A stretch of 64,000 nucleotides of DNA. Origin: Bacillus sp. J37. Its GTDB lineage: Bacteria; Bacillota; Bacilli; Bacillales; Bacillaceae. A program made the position numbers and the translations under genes. The stretch's first letter is position 1, and the number at the start of each line of letters is the position of its first letter. A model generated the notes under the pieces. It saw only the letters and a program-made list of their open reading frames with translations, was not told the origin of the DNA and did not search any database. Location: assembly GCF_000518865.1 (NCBI RefSeq), contig NZ_JAEK01000004.1, positions 1 to 64,000 on the forward strand. The letters run 5' to 3'. Shown one piece after another: positions 21,779-32,586 of the stretch.

Positions 21779-23365
21779 TTAGTTGTTATCATCGCTTTCT
21801 TCTTCACTTGGAATGAGGATTTGCCCGCTCCAATCCTTTTTCAATAATGTTTGGAGGATTAGTTTCGAGAGCTTACTAGGCTGATAAGGTTTAATTAAAT
21901 ACTCATTCACGCCTAATGCTAAACCTTTCTCCTTTTCATCCAGTGCAGTAGATATAAAAATCGGGATTGTTTTTAATTCTTCAATACCTTTTAACTGTTT
22001 AATCATTTCCCAGCCATCTATTCCTTTTTCCTCCAACATGATATCAAGGACAATGGCGTCAGGCCGCTCTTTTTTTATTGCTTCTAAAGCAAGCTCTCCA
22101 TTACTGTAGGTTTTAACATGGAAGTTACTTTCTTCAAGCTCTGTTTGTAGTAAATTAGCCAGACTGTTGTCATCTTCAACAATAATGACATTCACATTTC
22201 CTTTCTGCGATGGAACACCTTGATTATCTTTTGAATGCTCTCTATTTCCCATAACTAACGGAAAACTGACTGTAAAGGTACTTCCCTTTTTAAGTGCAGA
22301 TTGAACACATACATCCCCATCATGTGACTTCATGATTTCCTTAACGATTGCCAGACCTAAGCCTGTTCCCCCAATTCTTCTCCTATCAGAATTATCCACT
22401 CTAAAAAACTTGGTGAATAATTTATCAATCGCTTCTTCCGGTATGCCCAGTCCTTCATCTTTTATCGAAATGTTTAAATTTGCCCCTTCTTCATAAACCG
22501 TAATTAGTATGTTTCCTCCATTTGGAGAGTACTTAATTGCATTACTTATTAAATTCGTAAAAACTTGGCTAATTTTATCTTTATCACCAAAAACACAAGT
22601 ATTAGAAGTTTGTACATCATATTGGATTGAATGACTGGGATGATTCACTTGATGTGTTTCAACGATATTAGAAATGAGAGGAACAATATCATCAAACTTT
22701 TTATCATAGGTTTGTTTACCCGCTTCCATTCGTTGAACGTCTAAGAAGTCATTAATAAGGACAGTCAAACGTTTGGCTTCTTGGTAAATTGTCGTTAAAT
22801 ATTTCTTTTGCCGATCAGGTTTTACTTCTCTATTCAACATTAACTCTGTAAAACCAAGAACACTTGCTAGTGGTGTTCGTAATTCATGGCTAACTGTACT
22901 TACAAACTCAGATTTCATAACATCGACTTCATATTCTTTTGTAATATCACGATGGACAACGACCGTTCCGAATTTCTCCCCGTCTCGTGCAAGTGGTTCA
23001 CAGTAAACCTGAATGACTCGATTAGTTGGACTATGTTGATGGTAAATAAACGATTGACGATCTGTTTTCCCTTGAATCAAGATTTGATCAAAAAACTGTT
23101 TTATTTCATGATGATTATCTACTTTCTCCAATATCATGTTTAACCAATATTTATAGGAGCTCTTGATCAAAATTTCTCTTTGGCAATCAATCATGTCACA
23201 CATCTTTGTGTTAACCTGTAGGACAGTACCATTTATGTCAATTAACTGAATACCCTCATTAATCGTATCCAGAATATCCTGAGTCAATTGACGTTCCCCT
23301 TCAGATAATTCAAAGATTTGAATTTTATCTAATGAAATTGCAATTTGTTTACTTAAGCCATTCAA
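21779..23365 (-). CDS. Hybrid kinase C-terminal part: PAS-HisKA-HATPase-REC (frameshifted)
   Basis: A 528-codon frame with PAS (about residues 25-150), HisKA (FVSTVSHELRTPLASVLGF), HATPase (NAIKYSPNGG, DEGLGIPEEA, GTGLGLAIVKEI) and a C-terminal receiver (VIVEDDNS, acceptor D in AIVLDIMLEEKG, lysine in YLIKPYQPS). The start is TTG and the first 20 residues (NGLSKQIAISLDKIQIFEL) are the last helix of a GAF domain whose body is encoded in the overlapping upstream frame. One extra base would fuse the two into a single protein of about 965 residues. Confidence 0.85.
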   Translation of the reverse strand: MNGLSKQIAISLDKIQIFELSEGERQLTQDILDTINEGIQLIDINGTVLQVNTKMCDMIDCQREILIKSSYKYWLNMILEKVDNHHEIKQFFDQILIQGKTDRQSFIYHQHSPTNRVIQVYCEPLARDGEKFGTVVVHRDITKEYEVDVMKSEFVSTVSHELRTPLASVLGFTELMLNREVKPDRQKKYLTTIYQEAKRLTVLINDFLDVQRMEAGKQTYDKKFDDIVPLISNIVETHQVNHPSHSIQYDVQTSNTCVFGDKDKISQVFTNLISNAIKYSPNGGNILITVYEEGANLNISIKDEGLGIPEEAIDKLFTKFFRVDNSDRRRIGGTGLGLAIVKEIMKSHDGDVCVQSALKKGSTFTVSFPLVMGNREHSKDNQGVPSQKGNVNVIIVEDDNSLANLLQTELEESNFHVKTYSNGELALEAIKKERPDAIVLDIMLEEKGIDGWEMIKQLKGIEELKTIPIFISTALDEKEKGLALGVNEYLIKPYQPSKLSKLILQTLLKKDWSGQILIPSEEESDDNN

Positions 23366-24675
23366 TCTCCTAACTCATCATCAGTAAAAGCTTGATTTAA
23401 TCTTGAATACACCATAACAGCTTCCATGAGTCCGGATGAGGATAAAACAGGCATATAAATGTCATAGCAATAAGATGCTTGAGTATGAAACCCTTTTTCT
23501 TCCGTTTCACATTTCCGTTTAATGATAAAAGGCTCTCTTTTCTCCTCTAGCCTGATCATTAAGCCCGAATCCAAGTGTGTAATAAATTGGTTTATCCCTT
23601 CTTCTGATACTCCAAAGCTTGAATGTGGGAGACCGCGGCCCAACAGGACTATTAAACCCTTATCTGCACCTATTACTTCACACATCGTTACCACTATACT
23701 CTTTAATACTTTCTCTTTATTAAGTGAGTTTGCCAGTCCGTTTACTAAATCATTACGGCGTCTAAGGTCAAGCTCTCGTTTTTGAGTTGTCTCTAAAGCT
23801 TCTTCAAGCTCAGTTTGCTGTGCTTGTAACTCATCCTGTTGAGCATGCAACTCCTCATTTTGTGCACTTAAATCCTGTTCTTTGTCCTGAATGCTTTTTG
23901 TCATTTTTTCAAAAGCTACGGATAGAAGACCAAGTTCATCCTGACGGTTTGTGGTGTCATTGAAAAGGATTGGGTTACCTTCCGTAATTTCACCAGCTGC
24001 AACCGTTAATTTTTTAAGTGGATCTCTGATACTTACAAGCATTCTTCTTGTGAAGGTAGCCATACTAACGATTAATAGAAAAAGCAAAATCCCGAAAACG
24101 ACCTGACTTATGAAAATTTTATTATTGTGAGTATCGTGGATACTCGAAAGCTGCTCCTCTAGATTCTCAGTGTAATCCTTAAAGTTTGCTTGATATAATC
24201 TAATCGTATCTGAAGCATTTTGATCGATTGCTATTTTATAAACTTCTTCATATTGTTTATTATCATAGAGTTCTTTTGATTTTGGCATAACGTCTCTAAA
24301 ATAATATTCAAAAAACCCGTTGGTTTGTTGCAAGAACAGTTCGTCTTCATCATTTTCTACGACATCTTTTAACTGTGATATTCTCTTCTCTGCTTTTGTT
24401 TTTTGTTCAAGGACCTTATCGTAATATATTTCCGTCCCATTATAAGCAAAATAGCCGCGCATTTCGGATATGGCTAGGTTGAATGAATAATCCAACTCTG
24501 ATGCAATATAATCCTTTTGTTCCAAGCTATCATTTATATTCTCAAAATTCTCATTGATGGCTGCTTGGTAAATCATTAATCCTGTCATCAATAAAGTAAA
24601 AGCTAAAATAATCGAAATCGTCAACAAACTAAACTGCCTTGCTAAACTTGTTTGTAAATATTTATTCAGCTTCAC
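23362..24675 (-). CDS. Hybrid kinase N-terminal part: 4HB sensor-HAMP-coil-GAF (frameshifted)
   Basis: A 437-codon frame. Membrane helices near residues 15-35 and 188-208 bracket a four-helix extracellular sensor of MCP/CHASE3 type; then HAMP, a glutamine-rich coil (LHAQQDELQAQQTELEEAL) and a GAF domain. The GAF is cut at QAFTDDELGD, just where the GAF C-terminal helix should begin; that helix opens the next frame. The start overlaps the end of the CheY-like gene by 14 bases. Read alone it would be a sensor with no kinase, so I treat it as half of a disrupted gene. Confidence 0.8.
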   Translation of the reverse strand: MKLNKYLQTSLARQFSLLTISIILAFTLLMTGLMIYQAAINENFENINDSLEQKDYIASELDYSFNLAISEMRGYFAYNGTEIYYDKVLEQKTKAEKRISQLKDVVENDEDELFLQQTNGFFEYYFRDVMPKSKELYDNKQYEEVYKIAIDQNASDTIRLYQANFKDYTENLEEQLSSIHDTHNNKIFISQVVFGILLFLLIVSMATFTRRMLVSIRDPLKKLTVAAGEITEGNPILFNDTTNRQDELGLLSVAFEKMTKSIQDKEQDLSAQNEELHAQQDELQAQQTELEEALETTQKRELDLRRRNDLVNGLANSLNKEKVLKSIVVTMCEVIGADKGLIVLLGRGLPHSSFGVSEEGINQFITHLDSGLMIRLEEKREPFIIKRKCETEEKGFHTQASYCYDIYMPVLSSSGLMEAVMVYSRLNQAFTDDELGD

Positions 24676-25027
24676 CTAAAATCTCCTCGATTCTTTCAAC
24701 AAGCTGAATGGGACTGAAAGGTTTTGACATAAAAAAGTCAGCACCAGCTTCCAACACCTTTTGTTGATCTGATGTTTGACTTTTTGCACTTAGCATCATA
24801 ATTTTTGTTTGAATTTGATCGTTTCTTATCATTTCGATTAATTCCAAACCTGTATATACAGGCATCATATAGTCAAGAAGAATAAGATCATAGTCATTTT
24901 GTATAATCAGATTATAAGCTTCTTCCCCGTCACAAGCTTCATCAATGATATATCCTACATCTTCAAGTGTATCTACTACAAGCATGCGTAACACTTCTTC
25001 ATCCTCTGCAAGTAATATCCTTTGCAT
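24662..25027 (-). CDS. Single-domain CheY-like response regulator
   Basis: A 121-residue receiver with no output domain: acidic pocket in LLAEDEEV, phospho-acceptor D52 in LILLDYMMP, T/S in MLSAKS and lysine in FMSKPFSP. It probably shuttles phosphate within the adjacent hybrid kinase/HPt-GGDEF pathway. Of two adjacent ATGs (25030, 25027) the second is better spaced from GGAGAG. It lies only 18 bases after a strong hairpin, with no room for a separate promoter. Confidence 0.9.
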   Translation of the reverse strand: MQRILLAEDEEVLRMLVVDTLEDVGYIIDEACDGEEAYNLIIQNDYDLILLDYMMPVYTGLELIEMIRNDQIQTKIMMLSAKSQTSDQQKVLEAGADFFMSKPFSPIQLVERIEEILGEAE

Positions 25028-25047
25028 CATAAGTCTCTCCTTTGTTA

Positions 25048-25090
25048 AAAATCTCAGACTCGATTATTGCTCATATCGAGTCTGAGATTT
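25048..25090 (-). terminator. Strong hairpin between the hydrolase-like gene and the CheY-like gene
   Basis: AAATCTCAGACTCGAT (25048-25063) pairs perfectly over 16 bp with ATCGAGTCTGAGATTT (25075-25090); minus-strand tail TTTTAAC. It starts 13 bases after the stop of the upstream gene and ends 18 bases before the next start codon, so it can act as an attenuator. Confidence 0.82.
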
Positions 25091-25102
25091 TCTGCATTAC
25101 TG

Positions 25103-28100
25103 TTATTTTATCCTTCCAAATGCTTCTTGTAGGTAGTCATAGGATTTTTTTAGTCGTTCGTGGTAGATTGGTTGGTCCCAATTATCCCATGTATACTCAA
25201 TCCAATCTCCTTTTGCAGATGGTATTTGCTGTACAGCTTCTTTGTTTTTGCTTGAAACCACTATTTTGGCAAAAATAAAATCAATTGTTTCTGAGTTCTC
25301 TTCTAAAGGTTTCCCAGACCATAAATCACCAGTAATTTCTTTCTGACTAGGGTCTTTTACATTCAACATTAGCCACGGCAATCGGAGCTCAAGTGTTCCA
25401 TCTTTCATATAAAAATCCGCTAAAGAATTGGAATTTTCCATTTCCGGATTACCAATACCATATGTTAATTTCCCTGTTTCATAGTCTGAAAAAGGAATAG
25501 TAAGTTGTCCCTCTTCTTTCTTTATCGTCAATTCCTTATTAAGTGTTAAGCGGATTGGATGATACACCCCATTATTTTTTTTATTTGCATAATCCTTTAT
25601 CGGAATCATTTCGAGAAGATTTCCATAGTGATAATAGAACGTGTCGTAATAGCTATCAATTAGTACTCTTGACGTTTTTTCTCCATTAAGCTCTACGACA
25701 AAATCAATTCCATCTTCCTTCACATTTTCTGCACTTGGAATAGTCGACTGCCCTTGATCTTTTATTGTGTCTAACAAGATAGACGTACTAAAGTTCTCAG
25801 AGTCCCACTCGTTTTCATCATAGTCAATGCGGATAAACAATCCTTGTTCATCACTAGACAAAAATACATTCTTAATGAGATCCAGCTCTTTAACCTCTAC
25901 AACCGGTTGTTCATTCCGTTTCTCCCAATCTGAGGTTTCTCCATCAATAAGAAGTTGCTTTTCTTCTGTATCAGGATCAAAACTCAGCAAACCAAAATGT
26001 TGTTCATTCGTTTGTATATTGTCCCAAAATGGTCTGCGGTTAGGATTATCATAATCCATTGTGTTCCACGTTCGTTTGAACCACTCATCCTGCCAAGCAA
26101 ACACAAGTCCTCCAGCCATTCCTTCTTCAACAATATCTTCATATAAAGAAACGAGATATCGACCCTGCTCTTGTTCTGAATGCTGGCCCTGATCATATCC
26201 ATAAACATTTTCATGTGTTAACCCTCTGGATGCCGGGATGCCATACTCAGCTACTACTACCGGCATTTCGTGATGTTTTTTCATATCATGCAGATACCCT
26301 GCATAGTTGTTCTTTTCCCCTCGATGATCAACATAGTTCACGTACTTTTCTTCATAATTTAAGAAATCCGGGTAGTAAGGATAAATATGATAAGACGCAA
26401 ACATACCTGGATAGAAGGCTTCCTTCGCCTTAATTTGGTTTGGATTTACTGACACCATATCTTCCTCTTCACTTGGTTCAGCAGGATGCTCTAATAAGTC
26501 TGTTGTTACCCAGTTTGTAAAACTCATCGGATGCTGCCAGTTATAAGTTTCCGCCTCATATGTTGCCGTATAATCCATCATTTCAGCTAGCCATACTTCA
26601 AAAGGTGATGAGTCTGACGTTGTGAAGTACTTCCCATCATAGCTTGTTTTATCTGGGTATTTTTCATTTGTCCTCACAACAGCCTTAGGATCCCACTCAA
26701 CCCCAATAACCCAGCCTAATAAATACGGAGACAAGTCATGTACATATTTCCCGCTTGCATGTCCAGCTCTTTCTTCAATATCAGCATTTCCATGAATGAT
26801 ATCAATTGTTCGTTGTATCTCTGCTTTAAAGTCATCCATTACTTCTGGATCATATGCTGTTCTTTGCTTTTTCTCATCAAAAAAAACATCTTCATTAACC
26901 CATACTCCATGAAATAAATAGATTGGATCTTCCCGACTACTATTATGTTCATACAAAGCTTGGTAAAATGCAGGCGGATGAATTGTGTAAACACGTAGTG
27001 CATTTGCATTCATTTCACTTATTTGGTCAAACCATCGTGCATATTCTTCCTTTGTTATACCAGTTTCTCCCGGGAAAGTACCAGGTTTAGCAATACCCAT
27101 ATTTACGCCTTTTATCAGCATATCTTCCCATTTTCCATCTTTATATAATTGAAGATATTCATCACTCGCAGCACCTGTCAGTTTTAAACCATCTTTTGTA
27201 AGGATTTCTGGTTCAACGAGTGTATCTTTCTGGTTAGTGGCAGAAATCTTCTTATTCGTTAAAATTTCTGTCATCAACGGTACATATGCTTTCCAAAAGA
27301 AAGTGTCTGTTCTCCCTTCTTGTTCAAACGAAAATAACTTTTGCCACCATGAGAGACCATTCATTTGATAAATACTTGGAACCTTCTCTTGATCAACAAA
27401 ATCACCTGCAAAGTAGTAGGTATCATAAGATTGATTTTGATGATGAATAACGGCAGGGAATTGAGTTGGAATCTCATAATTTTCTAACGTTTGCTTTCCA
27501 CTATCTGTTAAAGGTAATTCAAACGTTGCTTGGACCTCTTCCTCATTTCTGGCATTCACAATATCAAACCAATAATTATACTGAACAGCCTTTTTTATAT
27601 GAAATTGTTTTTGTCCTTTGTCTGTTAACTGGAACAAAGCATGGTTTTCTGCCATATCTTTGTCTGTTAACACAACAACCTGATCTTTTTCATTAACAAA
27701 TACAAAGCCATTACCTTCATAGTCAAACGGTTCATTATATTGTGTTTCATAATTTTGTTTTACCCAGACAGGCACTTCATCATTAGTTAAATCATGAAAA
27801 TACCTTCCCATCCAACCAGTCCATTCCAAATTTAATAATTGGTAAAACTCCGCTCTGACATTCTCCTCAGTCGGTGAACCAAATGTATTAAACTCTGCAA
27901 TTAATGTTTGGTTATTCTCAATTAATGAGTCGTTTAATGATTGAATCTCCTCTTGTGTGATACCTCCATATAGAAGCTCTGAACGCTTCCCCTCCTTGTT
28001 ACCGTTCATATATTCATCCTCATAAACACCATATCCATCTGCAAGATATAAAATATCATAAGAGGATAAATCTTCCGGTAGCTCCCGGGTACGGAACTCC

Positions 28101-28360
28101 GGAGGATTGTCAGTTGGGACAAACCCTACATAATCCTCCTCTAGATTATAATTGTCTGTTCCATCCTTTTTTAACTTTAAATGGTTAAGAACCCAGATCA
28201 ATCCTTTATGTTCACGGTAAGATTGATCTGGTACCGTTTTATCAATTATAAGTACGTTAAGATTTTGACTTGCTTTTAATTGCCATATCCAAAAAGGAGA
28301 TGTGAAGATAATAAACAGCAGCAGAACTCCAACTGTTAAGAATACATTTTTTTTAGTCAT
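25103..28360 (-). CDS. Membrane-anchored glycoside hydrolase-like protein
   Basis: A protein of about 1085 residues with an N-terminal membrane segment (about 5-27) and the remainder outside. Residues about 30-390 resemble a beta-rich/ThuA-like region; about 400-800 is a TIM-barrel glycosidase-like domain with candidate acid/base Glu in GWVIGVEWDP and nucleophile Glu in PVVVAEYGIPASRG. The C-terminal about 210 residues begin LLIDGETSDWEKR, like CBM9/DOMON-type sugar-binding sandwiches. GT2 partner next to it suggests it trims or modifies the exported polymer. GTG at 28369 is possible; ATG 28360 follows AAAAGGTG. Family assignment is tentative. Confidence 0.8.
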   Translation of the reverse strand: MTKKNVFLTVGVLLLFIIFTSPFWIWQLKASQNLNVLIIDKTVPDQSYREHKGLIWVLNHLKLKKDGTDNYNLEEDYVGFVPTDNPPEFRTRELPEDLSSYDILYLADGYGVYEDEYMNGNKEGKRSELLYGGITQEEIQSLNDSLIENNQTLIAEFNTFGSPTEENVRAEFYQLLNLEWTGWMGRYFHDLTNDEVPVWVKQNYETQYNEPFDYEGNGFVFVNEKDQVVVLTDKDMAENHALFQLTDKGQKQFHIKKAVQYNYWFDIVNARNEEEVQATFELPLTDSGKQTLENYEIPTQFPAVIHHQNQSYDTYYFAGDFVDQEKVPSIYQMNGLSWWQKLFSFEQEGRTDTFFWKAYVPLMTEILTNKKISATNQKDTLVEPEILTKDGLKLTGAASDEYLQLYKDGKWEDMLIKGVNMGIAKPGTFPGETGITKEEYARWFDQISEMNANALRVYTIHPPAFYQALYEHNSSREDPIYLFHGVWVNEDVFFDEKKQRTAYDPEVMDDFKAEIQRTIDIIHGNADIEERAGHASGKYVHDLSPYLLGWVIGVEWDPKAVVRTNEKYPDKTSYDGKYFTTSDSSPFEVWLAEMMDYTATYEAETYNWQHPMSFTNWVTTDLLEHPAEPSEEEDMVSVNPNQIKAKEAFYPGMFASYHIYPYYPDFLNYEEKYVNYVDHRGEKNNYAGYLHDMKKHHEMPVVVAEYGIPASRGLTHENVYGYDQGQHSEQEQGRYLVSLYEDIVEEGMAGGLVFAWQDEWFKRTWNTMDYDNPNRRPFWDNIQTNEQHFGLLSFDPDTEEKQLLIDGETSDWEKRNEQPVVEVKELDLIKNVFLSSDEQGLFIRIDYDENEWDSENFSTSILLDTIKDQGQSTIPSAENVKEDGIDFVVELNGEKTSRVLIDSYYDTFYYHYGNLLEMIPIKDYANKKNNGVYHPIRLTLNKELTIKKEEGQLTIPFSDYETGKLTYGIGNPEMENSNSLADFYMKDGTLELRLPWLMLNVKDPSQKEITGDLWSGKPLEENSETIDFIFAKIVVSSKNKEAVQQIPSAKGDWIEYTWDNWDQPIYHERLKKSYDYLQEAFGRIK

Positions 28361-29762
28361 TTGACACACCTTTTCTTACCATTTCTCCCCAGCCTTTTTT
28401 CCCAATTACCATCTCTATCATTCCCTCGACCCTCCATATAACTGTAAGAGGACGGTACCAAAGTGTTTCTGTCATTGAAACTAGAAAAAGAATAACAAAA
28501 TGCTTTACTTTTGGATATCTTTCCATACTCCACTCCTCCAATAAAACAGATGCCATGGAATAAATAGAACCATAAATAAGGGAGAGAAGGAAAAAGATAA
28601 TGGCATACTCAACATATATGCTGCCTGTAAATATGGAAATAATTAATATGATATAACCGATTAATTCGATTAATGGTCCTAAAAACTCAACAAAAAAGAA
28701 ATAAGGCATTGAAAACATCCCTATTGATCCATACTTAGGATTAAACATCAGTTTTCGATGTTTCCATAGGCTATCAAATAATCCCTTGTGCCATCTTTTT
28801 CGTTGTCGTCGTAAGAATTTGATCGACTCGGGAGCCTCTGTCCAGCAAACTGGATCTGGTACATATATAATTTTTTTATTCTCCTTTTTTTCTTTAATTA
28901 ATCGATGAAGACGAACAACTAACTCCATATCCTCCCCAACCGTATGAGCATAGCCTCCTGCATCAATAACCCATTTCTTTGAAAAAACACCAAAAGCACC
29001 TGACACAATGAGCAGCAAATTGTTTTCACTTAATCCGACTCTACCTGTTAAAAATGCCCGGAGATACTCAATAATTTGCATAATAACAAGTGGTTTTCGC
29101 GAAAGTTCCACGTTAACAAGTTCACCATTTTGGATGTCACATCCATTTGCAATTCTTACACTACCTCCCGATGCAATCACTTCATCATCAGACTCAATAA
29201 TCGGTTTTAAAACTTTCAGGAATGCATTGCGCTCGATAATTGAATCTCCGTCAAGAGAGCAAAAATACGGATATCTTGATAGATTAATTCCAGCATTTAA
29301 TGCATCTGCCTTCCCTCCATTTTCTTTGTCGATTACGATTAGATTCGGATAGATCACGGATTGATGGATTCCTTTTACTTTCTTCGTTTCCAGCTGCTTT
29401 CGTATAACACGATTTATTTTCACCATTTGAAAACGATCGATTAGTTTTTCTAAAGTATCATCTTTTGAACCATCATTAATGATGATGATTTCATATTCTG
29501 GATATTCAATACTGATCAAAGAACGTATACTCCCATAAATTCCGGCTGATTCATTATAAGCCGGAACTAGAATGGATACCGGTTTGGTAAACTCTGATTG
29601 CAATAATTCTTCATAAGGCTCAATCTCGTCAAGTTCATATGTTTTTCGTATATGGAAAAGGGAAATAATCAACATTCCACCATAAACTGCAATAATCATA
29701 ACCATATAAATGACAATAACCCAACTGCCGACAACTAAAAAATTAGACCAATTAATTATCAT
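28353..29762 (-). CDS. Processive GT2 glycosyltransferase (polysaccharide synthase)
   Basis: A 469-residue membrane glycosyltransferase. One N-terminal helix, a GT-A domain with SILVPAYNESAG, the donor-binding DG in IIINDGSKDDT, ENGGKADALNAG, the D-x-D-like SLDGDSII, the catalytic TVGEDMEL and the processive-synthase motif QRKRWHKG, then three to four C-terminal helices. This set is shared by poly-N-acetylglucosamine, hyaluronan and cellulose synthases. No PilZ domain is present. The ATG at 29762 overlaps the HEAT gene end by 11 bases; the frame is open to 29813 but lacks a better start. Confidence 0.92.
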   Translation of the reverse strand: MIINWSNFLVVGSWVIVIYMVMIIAVYGGMLIISLFHIRKTYELDEIEPYEELLQSEFTKPVSILVPAYNESAGIYGSIRSLISIEYPEYEIIIINDGSKDDTLEKLIDRFQMVKINRVIRKQLETKKVKGIHQSVIYPNLIVIDKENGGKADALNAGINLSRYPYFCSLDGDSIIERNAFLKVLKPIIESDDEVIASGGSVRIANGCDIQNGELVNVELSRKPLVIMQIIEYLRAFLTGRVGLSENNLLLIVSGAFGVFSKKWVIDAGGYAHTVGEDMELVVRLHRLIKEKKENKKIIYVPDPVCWTEAPESIKFLRRQRKRWHKGLFDSLWKHRKLMFNPKYGSIGMFSMPYFFFVEFLGPLIELIGYIILIISIFTGSIYVEYAIIFFLLSLIYGSIYSMASVLLEEWSMERYPKVKHFVILFLVSMTETLWYRPLTVIWRVEGMIEMVIGKKGWGEMVRKGVSND

Positions 29763-30801
29763 CACCGCTCTCTTTACTAATCCATTCCTTGGCCATATCC
29801 CTGGCAAATTCATCTTTTGTTTCCTCTATTACTCTCTTTAATCGATTAATTCCACCTTTGAACTGCAGGATGGCTTTAGCAGCCTCGGCTCGAACAACAT
29901 ACTCTTGATCTGATAGTAAGGTAATAAGTTGAGCTTCAAAAACACTTAACCTCCTTACTCCAGCTACCTTTGCTGCCATCATACGCACCTGCCAGCTTGA
30001 TGATAAAAAAAAGGCGCTTAACATTGTTTCATTAATCGGCGCACCTGTATAGGCATAGGCTTTTAATGTTCGTATTTTGAGTTCTTCATCATCACGTTGA
30101 AGCAATTTTCCAAGGAGAATGTGGTGATGCAAATATTGTTCTTTTCCAATGGTTTCAATGATCATATATTGTGTTTGCTTAGATAATGTATCAAAGTCAT
30201 TGACTAACTTATTAAAGGAATCCTCCTCCAAGAGAGAAAGAATAGATAACAAAGCAAAATCAGAAATTGTTGTATCTAATTCTTTCAAATAACCTACTAT
30301 TCTTTGATCATTAAATTTAGCAAATAACCTTAGTATTTGAATTTTCTCTGGAACTGTTGTGTTCTTTTTTCTATACAAATTGTGCAATAGGTCTATCAAA
30401 TGATCCATGTAAAAATCTTCAATCGAATAAAGAGCATTCATTCTTAAGCTCCATCGTTTTTTCTTTAATTTTTCAACAATATATTTTGTTAAATGCCTTT
30501 TAGCAAAATCACTTATTCTTTGCTTAATATCTTCACTATCCAATACATCCGAGTACTCATTAAGCAACTCGATAAGTGCCATAAATTTTTCCTGACTTCC
30601 ATTTGGATTTAAAGGACCCTCATTGCCTGATTGTAAAAAATGAAACATATCTAAACGATATGTTTCTTTATATGCATCAATTTTTTTTCTTGTTTCATTA
30701 CGAATTTTCTTTTGTATAACCAAGTATAGAAATAGACTTAACAGAAGGAAAAACAACCCTAGAAACAAGATAAAAAGTAAACTGAGACTTACTTCTATCA
30801 T
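29752..30801 (-). CDS. Membrane-anchored HEAT-repeat protein
   Basis: A 349-residue protein with an N-terminal membrane helix (about 5-28), a charged linker and helical pairs to the end. The last third shows clear HEAT-type units: SSWQVRMMAAKVAGV, then DQEYVVRAEAAKAILQFKGG. It is probably a scaffold linking the GGDEF regulator and the synthase. One base separates it from the upstream GGDEF gene, and it overlaps the GT2 gene, so the genes are translationally coupled. Confidence 0.82.
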   Translation of the reverse strand: MIEVSLSLLFILFLGLFFLLLSLFLYLVIQKKIRNETRKKIDAYKETYRLDMFHFLQSGNEGPLNPNGSQEKFMALIELLNEYSDVLDSEDIKQRISDFAKRHLTKYIVEKLKKKRWSLRMNALYSIEDFYMDHLIDLLHNLYRKKNTTVPEKIQILRLFAKFNDQRIVGYLKELDTTISDFALLSILSLLEEDSFNKLVNDFDTLSKQTQYMIIETIGKEQYLHHHILLGKLLQRDDEELKIRTLKAYAYTGAPINETMLSAFFLSSSWQVRMMAAKVAGVRRLSVFEAQLITLLSDQEYVVRAEAAKAILQFKGGINRLKRVIEETKDEFARDMAKEWISKESGDDN

Positions 30802-30802
30802 A

Positions 30803-32314
30803 TTATTTCATCCTCTTAATTAAATGACCTAAACGTGTTTCAAGCTCTAAAAGCTTAAATGGCTTTGTAATATAATCATCCGCCCCTAATTGCAAAGCCC
30901 TCGTGATGTCATGTTCACTCTTACGTGAAGTTAACATCATTACGGTAAATCGCTCTTGATACGAAAGCGCCCTAAGCTTCTGTAACACTTCTAATCCATC
31001 CATTCTCGGCATCATACCATCTAAAATAATTAAATATTGCTCATTATTATTCAAATGCCATGCTGCTTCAATAAATTCCATTCCATCTTTAAATGTCTTA
31101 ATATCAACGGTGAATCCGTCCGTAAATTTGCTTTTGCTAATTAAATCCTCCAGCATTGTTCGAATGATTGGGTCATCATCCACGATTCCCACATGAATTG
31201 GTTTCTTCTTAATATCTTTATAATCAATAGCTGCTACCTTAATTTGATTTCTCCCAGACTGTTTCGCTTCATAAAGGGCACCATCAGCAATTTCAATATT
31301 CCTTGTTATCTCAGTTTCATTTGATTGGACTTCATGTATCCCCGACGAAAATGAACAGTAAAACTCTTCTTCATTTCCTTCAAAAGATATATTGGAAAAT
31401 TCCCTTAAGATTCTTTCAAGAACAAGCTTCGCTTCGTTAGCTTTTGTCTCTGGAAGAAGGATGATAAATTCTTCTCCGCCATACCGGATTATGATGTCAT
31501 TAATTCGCAACCCTTTTCTTATCGTATCAGCAAATGTCGCTAAAACCTCTTCTCCCACAATATGGCCATATGTGTCATTTACTTGTTTAAAGTGATCAAG
31601 ATCCAATAAAGCGATACAAAATGATACTCGCCTTCTTTTCAAGCTACTTACAAAGCGTTCATACGTTTGAGGTAAAAACTTACGATTGTATACTCTTGTT
31701 AGTTCATCAATCAACATGACATTATCAATTGCTTGTTTTCTCTCTAATTGACGGTTTATTCGGACAATAAACTCTTCAATGTCGATTGGTTTTTGAATAA
31801 AATCATCTGTACCTAATTGATAGCTTTTCATTCGCGTCTCTTTTGAGTGATCAATGCTGATCATAATTGTTGGTATAAACTGTTGTTTCATCTTTTCTTT
31901 AAGTTGTACCAGCACATCCCACCCATTTTTATCTTTCATGTGAATATCAATGATGACACAATCTGGATTTAAATCATAATAAGAGTTAATCGCACGATCA
32001 GGGTTAGCTACAGCTATGACGATCCAACCATGTTTTTCCAAATGCTCCTTTATATACATTAACAGCGCTGTGTCATCATCTATAAGTAAAATTAATTTTT
32101 TATCTTCAAATTCGCTTTTTCTCTCAATAATTTCATCAATATTGGAATATTCCTCATAATAAATAATGGAAATAAGAGGGAGTAGAAAAGACTGTAACTC
32201 TTCTTTTTTCCACTCTTTTTCTTCATCCAAATTTATTTGATCCATAAGCTTTCTTGCCATATCACCAGCTACTGTAAATCCAATCGTGGAAGCTGTTCCT
32301 GCTATTGAATGCAA
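30803..32314 (-). CDS. (HPt)-REC-GGDEF-REC diguanylate cyclase, main part (frameshifted)
   Basis: A 503-codon frame. It opens inside an HPt domain (HSIAGTASTIGF carries the phospho-His), then receiver 1 (LLIDDDT, CVIIDIHMKDKNG), a GGDEF domain with active-site RYGGEEF and an inhibitory RIND five residues upstream, and receiver 2 (GIVDDDP, LIILDGMMPRMDG, ITKPF). The catalytic motifs are intact, so it should make c-di-GMP. The TTG start at 32314 is not credible: the missing HPt helices are encoded in another frame from 32418, and one extra T in the run at 32313-32317 joins them. Confidence 0.88.
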   Translation of the reverse strand: MHSIAGTASTIGFTVAGDMARKLMDQINLDEEKEWKKEELQSFLLPLISIIYYEEYSNIDEIIERKSEFEDKKLILLIDDDTALLMYIKEHLEKHGWIVIAVANPDRAINSYYDLNPDCVIIDIHMKDKNGWDVLVQLKEKMKQQFIPTIMISIDHSKETRMKSYQLGTDDFIQKPIDIEEFIVRINRQLERKQAIDNVMLIDELTRVYNRKFLPQTYERFVSSLKRRRVSFCIALLDLDHFKQVNDTYGHIVGEEVLATFADTIRKGLRINDIIIRYGGEEFIILLPETKANEAKLVLERILREFSNISFEGNEEEFYCSFSSGIHEVQSNETEITRNIEIADGALYEAKQSGRNQIKVAAIDYKDIKKKPIHVGIVDDDPIIRTMLEDLISKSKFTDGFTVDIKTFKDGMEFIEAAWHLNNNEQYLIILDGMMPRMDGLEVLQKLRALSYQERFTVMMLTSRKSEHDITRALQLGADDYITKPFKLLELETRLGHLIKRMK

Positions 32315-32418
32315 AAATCGATATACTTCTTTATGTGTTGAATAATTTCCTTTTCATTAAGCCAAGATTCAAGTTGTTTTCTTACGTTCTTTACCAATAA
32401 TTGAAAATATTTATTCAT
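32302..32418 (-). pseudogene. N-terminal HPt fragment of the diguanylate cyclase gene
   Basis: From an ATG at 32418, preceded by GGGAGAGG, 38 codons read as HPt helices (NKYFQLLVKNVRKQLESWL and KEIIQHIKKYIDF) before a TAG. Adding one T to the five-T run at 32313-32317 continues the frame straight into LHSIAGTASTIGF, the canonical HPt phosphorylation motif. This is the true 5' end of the gene; the break is a single-base deletion or a sequencing error in a homopolymer. Confidence 0.8.
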
Positions 32419-32515
32419 TGGCCTCTCCCATTACTCACTATTTTTTCTAAAATCTTACTTTTAATGATGAAAATGTATCATACAACAGACAATTTTACTA
32501 GAAAAAACTTTTTGT

Positions 32516-32538
32516 TTTGACAAAATTCGACTTTTGTC
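32516..32538 (-). promoter_or_regulatory. Candidate Spo0A box / inverted repeat upstream of the polysaccharide cluster
   Basis: On the minus strand TTTGTCAAA (32524-32516) matches the 0A-box consensus TTTGTCRAA. It is part of a 7-bp inverted repeat GACAAAA-N6-TTTTGTC (32519-32538), about 100 bases upstream of the ATG at 32418. A chance match in AT-rich DNA is possible. Confidence 0.4.
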
Positions 32539-32586
32539 CTACTCATTTAGAGGTTGCGTCATCCACAATATGATAAAAGACTCTCC

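Follow-up and report, generated by a model that had tools for sequence, protein, structure and literature searches.

A putative relay-controlled exopolysaccharide operon of Bacillaceae in which a HEAT-repeat protein is paired with a GT2 synthase

A 64,000-nt stretch of Bacillus sp. J37 (the window, whose positions serve as coordinates throughout) carries on its minus strand, between 21.8 and 32.4 kb, a run of genes which in reading order encode an HPt-REC-GGDEF-REC protein (the GGDEF protein, with receivers REC1 and REC2), a HEAT-repeat protein, a family 2 glycosyltransferase (GT2), an anchored glycosidase-like protein (GHL), a stand-alone receiver and a hybrid kinase, with neighbouring starts and stops almost touching. 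On evidence that is computational throughout, we consider it rather probable that this is a relay-controlled, synthase-dependent exopolysaccharide operon with a built-in switch, producing perhaps a β-glucan, and that the HEAT protein is the dedicated partner of the synthase. The operon itself is real and more than a chance arrangement: the same order recurs across genera of the Bacillaceae, including Metabacillus, Rossellomorea, Niallia, Paraliobacillus and others. An earlier, sequence-only reading of this DNA would have been refuted by finding these genes scattered in homologous genomes, and the neighbourhoods compared do not refute it; the gene order, single strand and near-gapless packing that it described agree with the open reading frame (ORF) listing and with Pfam.

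Parts of the operon and the HEAT-GT2 pair

The features are listed below; numbers preceded by L denote loci used for comparison.

30803..32418, minus strand: HPt-REC1-GGDEF-REC2 gene; frameshift in the HPt-coding part, open frame 30803-32353
29752..30801, minus strand: HEAT-repeat protein; HEAT_2 32.7 bits (cut-off 27.7), N-terminal hydrophobic stretch by sequence
28353..29813, minus strand: GT2 synthase of processive type, QRKRW, without PilZ; Glycos_transf_2 79.4 bits
25103..28369, minus strand: GHL, anchored and glycosidase-like; N-terminal helix, GATase1/GH42-trimerisation-like domain, GH157-like barrel, β-rich region before the last helix
24662..25030, minus strand: stand-alone CheY/Spo0F-like receiver; Response_reg 100.6 bits
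23362..24675, minus strand: N-terminal half of the hybrid kinase (membrane sensor part, HAMP, GAF-like); split from the rest by a frameshift, stops at the GAF-PAS junction
21779..23365, minus strand: C-terminal half of the hybrid kinase (PAS-HisKA-HATPase-REC), from Pfam and comparison with relatives
32519..32540, minus strand: upstream stretch AGGACAAAAGTCGAATTTTGTC; identical in L003, two changes in L002, single occurrence in the window

The Pfam scan of the operon returned a GGDEF domain with two receivers, HEAT repeats, GT2, the stand-alone receiver and PAS-HisKA-HATPase-receiver, with HAMP in the preceding ORF; the HEAT and GT2 ORFs overlap as listed. The GGDEF protein of the window has the GG(D/E)EF active site in the form GGEEF (143 bits), an I-site RxxD (RIND), the motif FLHSIAGTAS and both receiver aspartates. 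It is a predicted cyclase, and a candidate for an operon-encoded protein that makes or binds cyclic di-GMP (c-di-GMP). Much of the earlier parts list was recovered: the intact GGEEF and RxxD, the HEAT protein, the GT2 with QxxRW and without a Pfam PilZ match, the CheY-like receiver, and the anchored glycosidase-like protein of about 1085 residues, which has 1088 aa and, in the structural model, an N-terminal helix (6-31) and a glycosidase-type barrel. The proposed 4HB-HAMP-GAF-PAS-kinase-REC hybrid held for HAMP, PAS, HisKA, HATPase and REC, but it lies in two ORFs in the window, Pfam found no 4HB domain in it, and the only GAF matches came from intact relatives, at scores under the cut-off.

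To follow the HEAT protein through the class, its profile was run against 299 genomes drawn evenly from it, of which 71 matched. Loci were fetched for 54 of the 71, including every match with E <1e-30 except the window and L085, which were covered separately. GT2 adjoined HEAT in all 54 and shared its strand in 53, with stop-to-stop frames overlapping or at most 67 bases apart, and this adjacency suggests that HEAT acts as the dedicated partner of these GT2 synthases. Compared to PDB sequences, its relatives were mostly artificial alpha-repeat proteins. Several points weigh against too general a picture: 15 weaker HEAT loci (E 4e-20 to 8e-11) lie outside the 54-locus count, congeneric loci are not independent, and in 18 of the 54 no GGDEF-like ORF lies directly upstream, so that HEAT-GT2 can do without the GGDEF protein. 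GHL was found inside the fetched stretch in 32 of the 54. One group of large genomes (L147, L149, L151-L157; f26, g59) carries HEAT-GT2 with neither GHL nor a GGDEF-like protein directly upstream. From 20 background stretches only L111 was used.

The neighbourhood of GHL was surveyed in 80 loci, kept from 96 encoding a GHL relative, with a script threshold of 150 bits for GT2. HEAT with an adjoining GT2 was present in 28 of these loci, and 24 others have a GT2 of at least 308 bits in the fetched flank without HEAT. The remaining 28 show no GT2 above 150 bits in the fetched flank (some have weaker matches and several are short contigs), which counts against the main reading. Among the 24 are haloarchaea (L032, L053), Acholeplasma (L054) and Treponema (L061), where GHL-type barrels lie near a related GT2; the link between synthase and glycosidase seems wider than the Bacilli operon. 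At L037:1329-2414 (minus strand) a GT2 adjoins the GATase-like N-terminal domain of GHL, which there is separate from the barrel; a barrel gene lies nearby. Closer to the window, whose GHL is 95% identical to those of M. niabensis and M. halosaccharovorans and whose genome is Metabacillus-like, 41 genomes gave a strong GT2 match in 21 and GHL in 17, all 17 falling within the 21 (among the GHL matches is one fragment of 128 residues). In neighbouring lineages the operon either lacks GHL (L082-L084) or consists of GGDEF-HEAT-GT2 alone (L085, L094).

The proposed relay and its two frameshifted genes

If the receiver and the kinase feed the HPt domain, its histidine should be kept only where both are present. 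The first set consisted of 41 GGDEF proteins beside HEAT, the window included by its open part (L005 and L093 probably duplicate one record, making the independent number slightly lower). Where receiver and kinase are present, the HPt motif is kept in 34/34 and the REC1 aspartate in 33/34. Seven loci lack the two; five of these have no HPt (L014, L017, L019, L030, L070) and in the HPt of L085 the histidine is replaced by Arg, while L094 runs against the expectation, keeping the HPt histidine, with the motif glycine changed, where no receiver and kinase are nearby. For the class sample, scoring used an HPt profile derived solely from the first set. Here the profile matched in 13/13 loci with the pair (28.9 to 94.5 bits), as did the histidine motif and the REC1 aspartate (12 by alignment, L134 by eye), compared to an HPt motif in 0/23 loci that lack the pair but have an upstream GGDEF-like ORF; among the latter only L126 exceeded 4 bits, and it has Asn for His. 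In both L085 and L126 the REC1 aspartate is replaced by Ser, with GGEEF still kept. In L014, L070, L148 and L159 a histidine falls by chance into the HPt column of the alignment; none of the four was scored as kept, since these proteins lack an HPt motif and the HPt profile either misses them altogether or, for L159, gives a negligible 1.4 bits.

The same contrast appears within single GTDB families (f13, f25, f49) and therefore does not reflect shared ancestry only. At the score thresholds used, stand-alone receiver and hybrid kinase were found together or not at all. The His-Asp-His-Asp residues of a relay (HisKA, receiver, HPt, terminal receiver) are present and linked in the first set, and their co-occurrence supports linkage and co-decay of the relay parts; phosphotransfer along them is what we infer. 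Pfam HPt stays below cut-off even in the intact L003 (21.3 vs 24.6 bits) and has no match in L083, so that the HPt call rests on the motif and on the in-house profile. These two sustain the HPt domain of the sequence-only reading, but its coding end is frameshifted and the start is the ATG at 32418, not 32538. The multistep phosphorelay proposed there fared similarly: the co-occurrence favours it, but both relay genes are frameshifted in this assembly.

The hybrid kinase of the window is split over 23362-24675 and 21779-23365. We read this as a frameshift because the close relatives L002 and L003 have one gene of 965 aa in its place; the N-terminal half is 93% identical to the first 437 residues of the L002 protein. 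The GGDEF gene begins with the ATG at 32418 and loses its frame soon after, in the HPt-coding part, the long open frame lying only downstream; in close relatives (94-95% identical) the frame is open, and L002 and L003 have both genes open. In a comparison based on ORFs of at least 120 aa, covering 53.7 kb of window coding sequence and the collinear stretches of two close relatives, just two uncompensated internal frameshifts were found, one each in the HPt-cyclase gene and the kinase gene. Of the other indels that are not a multiple of 3, two pairs cancel nearby and two lie at gene ends, each against one relative only. A check at the ORF level agreed: among 117 relative ORFs matched in the window (from redundant, overlapping stretches), only three kinase copies were spread over two frames, two further ORFs were partial at one end, and the GGDEF break was too close to the start to register.

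The sensor branch is thus probably broken in this strain, or else the draft is wrong at both places. In this genome kinase and HPt parts are frameshifted, whereas GGDEF (apart from its HPt-coding end), HEAT, GT2 and GHL have open frames; unless the frameshifts are assembly errors, the sensor is probably no longer coupled to the synthase. With two frameshifted genes, the relay as originally drawn cannot work here if the assembly is right. A serious contender, to which we give somewhat less credence than to true decay, is that both breaks arose in sequencing or assembly and that the living strain has an intact relay. The genome is a 96-contig draft (5.34 Mb), both frameshifts are small indels, and a relative (L007:8615-16470) likewise has its GT2 and its kinase each split over two frames, by error or by decay. 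However, the sole two uncompensated frameshifts in 53.7 kb both hit the relay genes (~4.5 kb), an outcome of ~0.7% if random, though with n=2, and the same branch decays elsewhere: the HPt histidine is replaced in L085 and L126, and receiver and kinase are gone in L094.

The GGDEF protein as candidate cyclase, receptor or adaptor

The sequence-only reading had looked for the c-di-GMP receptor in the HEAT protein or in an outside protein; the RxxD site of the GGDEF protein is the better candidate. Its catalytic motif is destroyed, with RxxD at the usual spacing, in L017, L019, L030 and L070, and lost, with RxxD kept by aligned column, in L127, L130, L134, L135, L137-L142 and L167, making 15 loci overall. 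According to the available portion of PMC7064775, B. subtilis YdaK, a degenerate GGDEF protein of an exopolysaccharide operon, binds c-di-GMP via an I-site-type RxxD. Since RxxD outlasts the catalytic motif in these loci, as in YdaK, the GGDEF protein is the likely first candidate for the receptor, and that of the window could be cyclase and receptor at once. Matches to GGDEF (nine), EAL (seven) and PilZ (one) in the genome make it probable that c-di-GMP is in use there. Two EAL matches lie beyond the window on the same contig (G000 contig C89, 66451-66885 and 103341-104027), the first one partial.

In each of five groups the best conserved domain of the GGDEF protein is its C-terminal receiver, REC2, and no other domain occurs in every one of the 36 proteins scored; this suggests that REC2 docks on HEAT-GT2. 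One possible explanation, which we regard as unlikely, takes this further: c-di-GMP would not be the output, and the GGDEF protein would be a phospho-switched adaptor whose REC2 contacts HEAT-GT2 and whose GGDEF domain is dispensable. The conservation of REC2 agrees with it. So do L129, L131, L133 and L136, where HPt His and REC1 Asp survive while GGDEF and RxxD are both lost, and L158-L166 and L169, where a protein of 248-250 aa beside HEAT has no GGDEF motif and only REC2 aligns in the three scored. The first four speak against a universal c-di-GMP output, and the relay loci L009 and L088, which have no RxxD, also weigh against the main reading. Conversely, GGEEF or GGDEF is kept together with RxxD in 32/34 relay loci of the first set, and RxxD persists despite a lost catalytic site in the 15 loci above. 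Moreover, another ORF with GGEEF and RxxD was found in the same cluster in L129 and L133, and further off in the stretches of L131 and L136. We prefer the GGDEF protein as a maker or reader of c-di-GMP. In L158-L166 and L169 (ten genomes of one genus; f38, g72), the receiver-like protein stands where the GGDEF protein otherwise lies; GHL is upstream of it, and HEAT and GT2 follow downstream.

Polymer, flanks and comparison with known systems

The GT2 is predicted to be processive from its family (Pfam GT2, QRKRW). Its best NCBIfam model is PgaC_IcaA (TIGR03937), at 127.4 bits under a cut-off of 422.3, and this nearest model would suggest an amino-sugar polymer, a point against a β-glucan; BcsA (TIGR03030) gave 30.2 bits against a cut-off of 699.1. 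For GHL, the evidence comes from the modelled fold. In clan-A glycosidases the acid/base follows strand 4 and the nucleophile strand 7. E558 follows the strand at 550-555 and E708 that at 704-709, both residues being invariant in 48 rows (strands numbered by reading the model), an arrangement in which the modelled GHL fits the clan-A barrel of GH157. Weighing against this assignment, identity to GH157 by structure is 16%, and a profile of 48 GHL sequences matched no PDB sequence up to E 10; the Foldseek and VIA-align lists were filled by the barrel, and families missing there are still possible. It may also be asked whether the GT2 makes poly-N-acetylglucosamine (PNAG) or another amino-sugar polymer of the PgaC/IcaA type, which GHL hydrolyses, the GH157-like fold being shared clan-A architecture only. 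The nearest NCBIfam model would point that way. The Pfam scan found no deacetylase domain in the operon. We judge this reading improbable and retain a β-glucan as the suggested polymer.

The operon had also been described as inserted between yugU and yugP. This claim was dropped: in seven same-genus genomes without the operon there is no empty site to compare, because none of the window's other flanking genes lies around yugP in them (two stretches were ended by contig ends, and three yugP matches are ~50% identical), and the GC content of the operon equals that of its flanks. For a c-di-GMP or other riboswitch, no Rfam match was obtained in the window at gathering thresholds. The Spo0A box consensus, looked for upstream of the GGDEF gene, is matched without mismatch in only 3/77 upstream stretches (window, L003, L014) and was rejected as not conserved; with up to 1 mismatch it occurs in 35/77, compared to 21% of letter-shuffled stretches, a mild excess. 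The first 12 bases of AGGACAAAAGTCGAATTTTGTC are likewise in 3/77 (window, L002, L003), the closest relatives only among those checked. Neither sigma-70-like promoters (39 observed vs 46.3 in shuffles) nor terminator-like sites (7 vs 5.4) gave a signal.

In the proposed mechanism the GT2, as its family suggests, would polymerise and extrude a sugar chain, HEAT would act as its dedicated membrane partner, as their gene pairing suggests, and the anchored GHL may trim or remodel the chain, perhaps a β-glucan, outside the membrane. In intact relatives the membrane hybrid kinase would pass phosphate to the stand-alone receiver, from which it would reach HPt and REC1 in the GGDEF protein. This input would switch local c-di-GMP synthesis by the GGDEF protein, which may dock on HEAT-GT2 through its C-terminal receiver and read c-di-GMP by its own RxxD site. 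A bolder proposal, which we put forward tentatively, is that HEAT-GT2 is a distinct polysaccharide machine of Bacilli in which an α-solenoid replaces PilZ/PgaD as regulatory subunit, that the GGDEF subunit has repeatedly turned from relay-driven cyclase into pure receptor or bare receiver adaptor, and that GHL is an unnamed glycosidase family whose members lie close to such synthases in haloarchaea, Acholeplasma and Treponema as well. If true, the locus would be a natural series of c-di-GMP control gained, rewired and lost around one synthase, and the natural intermediates between cyclase and receptor would make the evolution of c-di-GMP receptors testable. Gram-positive polymers and their control by c-di-GMP are poorly known, and the operon offers a testable wiring from sensor kinase through receiver and HPt-cyclase to synthase partner, with HEAT as a candidate regulatory subunit whose synthase is next door in every examined locus, and GHL as a carbohydrate enzyme group without a Pfam family.

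A literature search over titles and the starts of abstracts, with preprints and most subscription papers outside its scope, found no paper treating an operon of this order among those listed, in agreement with the novelty that the sequence-only reading had tied to the lack of a named operon. The gene set, conserved in many Bacillus-like bacteria, is apparently not yet described. To our knowledge, none of the nearest known kinds (ydaJKLMN, Pel, PNAG, cellulose, RiGT2) combines HEAT, an HPt-fused cyclase and a GH157-like enzyme. YdaK is not known to have an HPt, receivers or a linked kinase. The B. subtilis ydaJKLMN operon, in the available text of its descriptions, comprises a putative synthase (YdaM/YdaN), a putative glycosyl hydrolase (YdaJ) and the GGDEF-type receptor YdaK, its polymer being not fully known (PMC7064775, PMC13274460). 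Both are operons with a synthase, a glycosidase-like enzyme and a GGDEF-type protein, and the degenerate GGDEF and working I-site of YdaK, as described there, resemble several lineages of the present operon (e.g. L017). Against the gene set in the accessible part of PMC13274460, the difference from ydaJKLMN claimed earlier holds. YdaK has 4 TM helices in the available part of PMC7064775, and the motif of the window is GGEEF, not degenerate. By the published descriptions, the present operon is set apart by its relay-linked intact GGDEF and its constant HEAT partner.

Pel, whose PelD is said to be a degenerate-GGDEF protein, uses PelF and PelG; the Pfam scan found no such domains in the present operon, only GT2, HEAT and signalling domains. 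The B. cereus Pel cluster is, in the portions available, a c-di-GMP-regulated polymer locus in Bacilli with PelD as in-operon receptor (PMC7112194, PMC7112168). PgaC/IcaA is the best-scoring NCBIfam model for the present GT2 (127 bits), but the score is far under the family cut-off of 422 and the operon has no deacetylase domain. LaGH157 is reportedly a GH157 endo-β-1,3-glucanase, and its PDB titles name laminari-oligosaccharide complexes; GHL differs from it in sequence (16% identity), in adding an N-terminal GATase1-like domain, an anchor and a β-rich region, and in sitting in a putative biosynthetic operon. Finally, RiGT2 of Romboutsia ilealis is, in the available part of PMC10374906, a Gram-positive GT2 with QxxRW that makes a mixed-linkage β-glucan and needs its C-terminal PilZ for activity; the present synthase shares the QxxRW and the Gram-positive setting but, unlike RiGT2, has no PilZ match.

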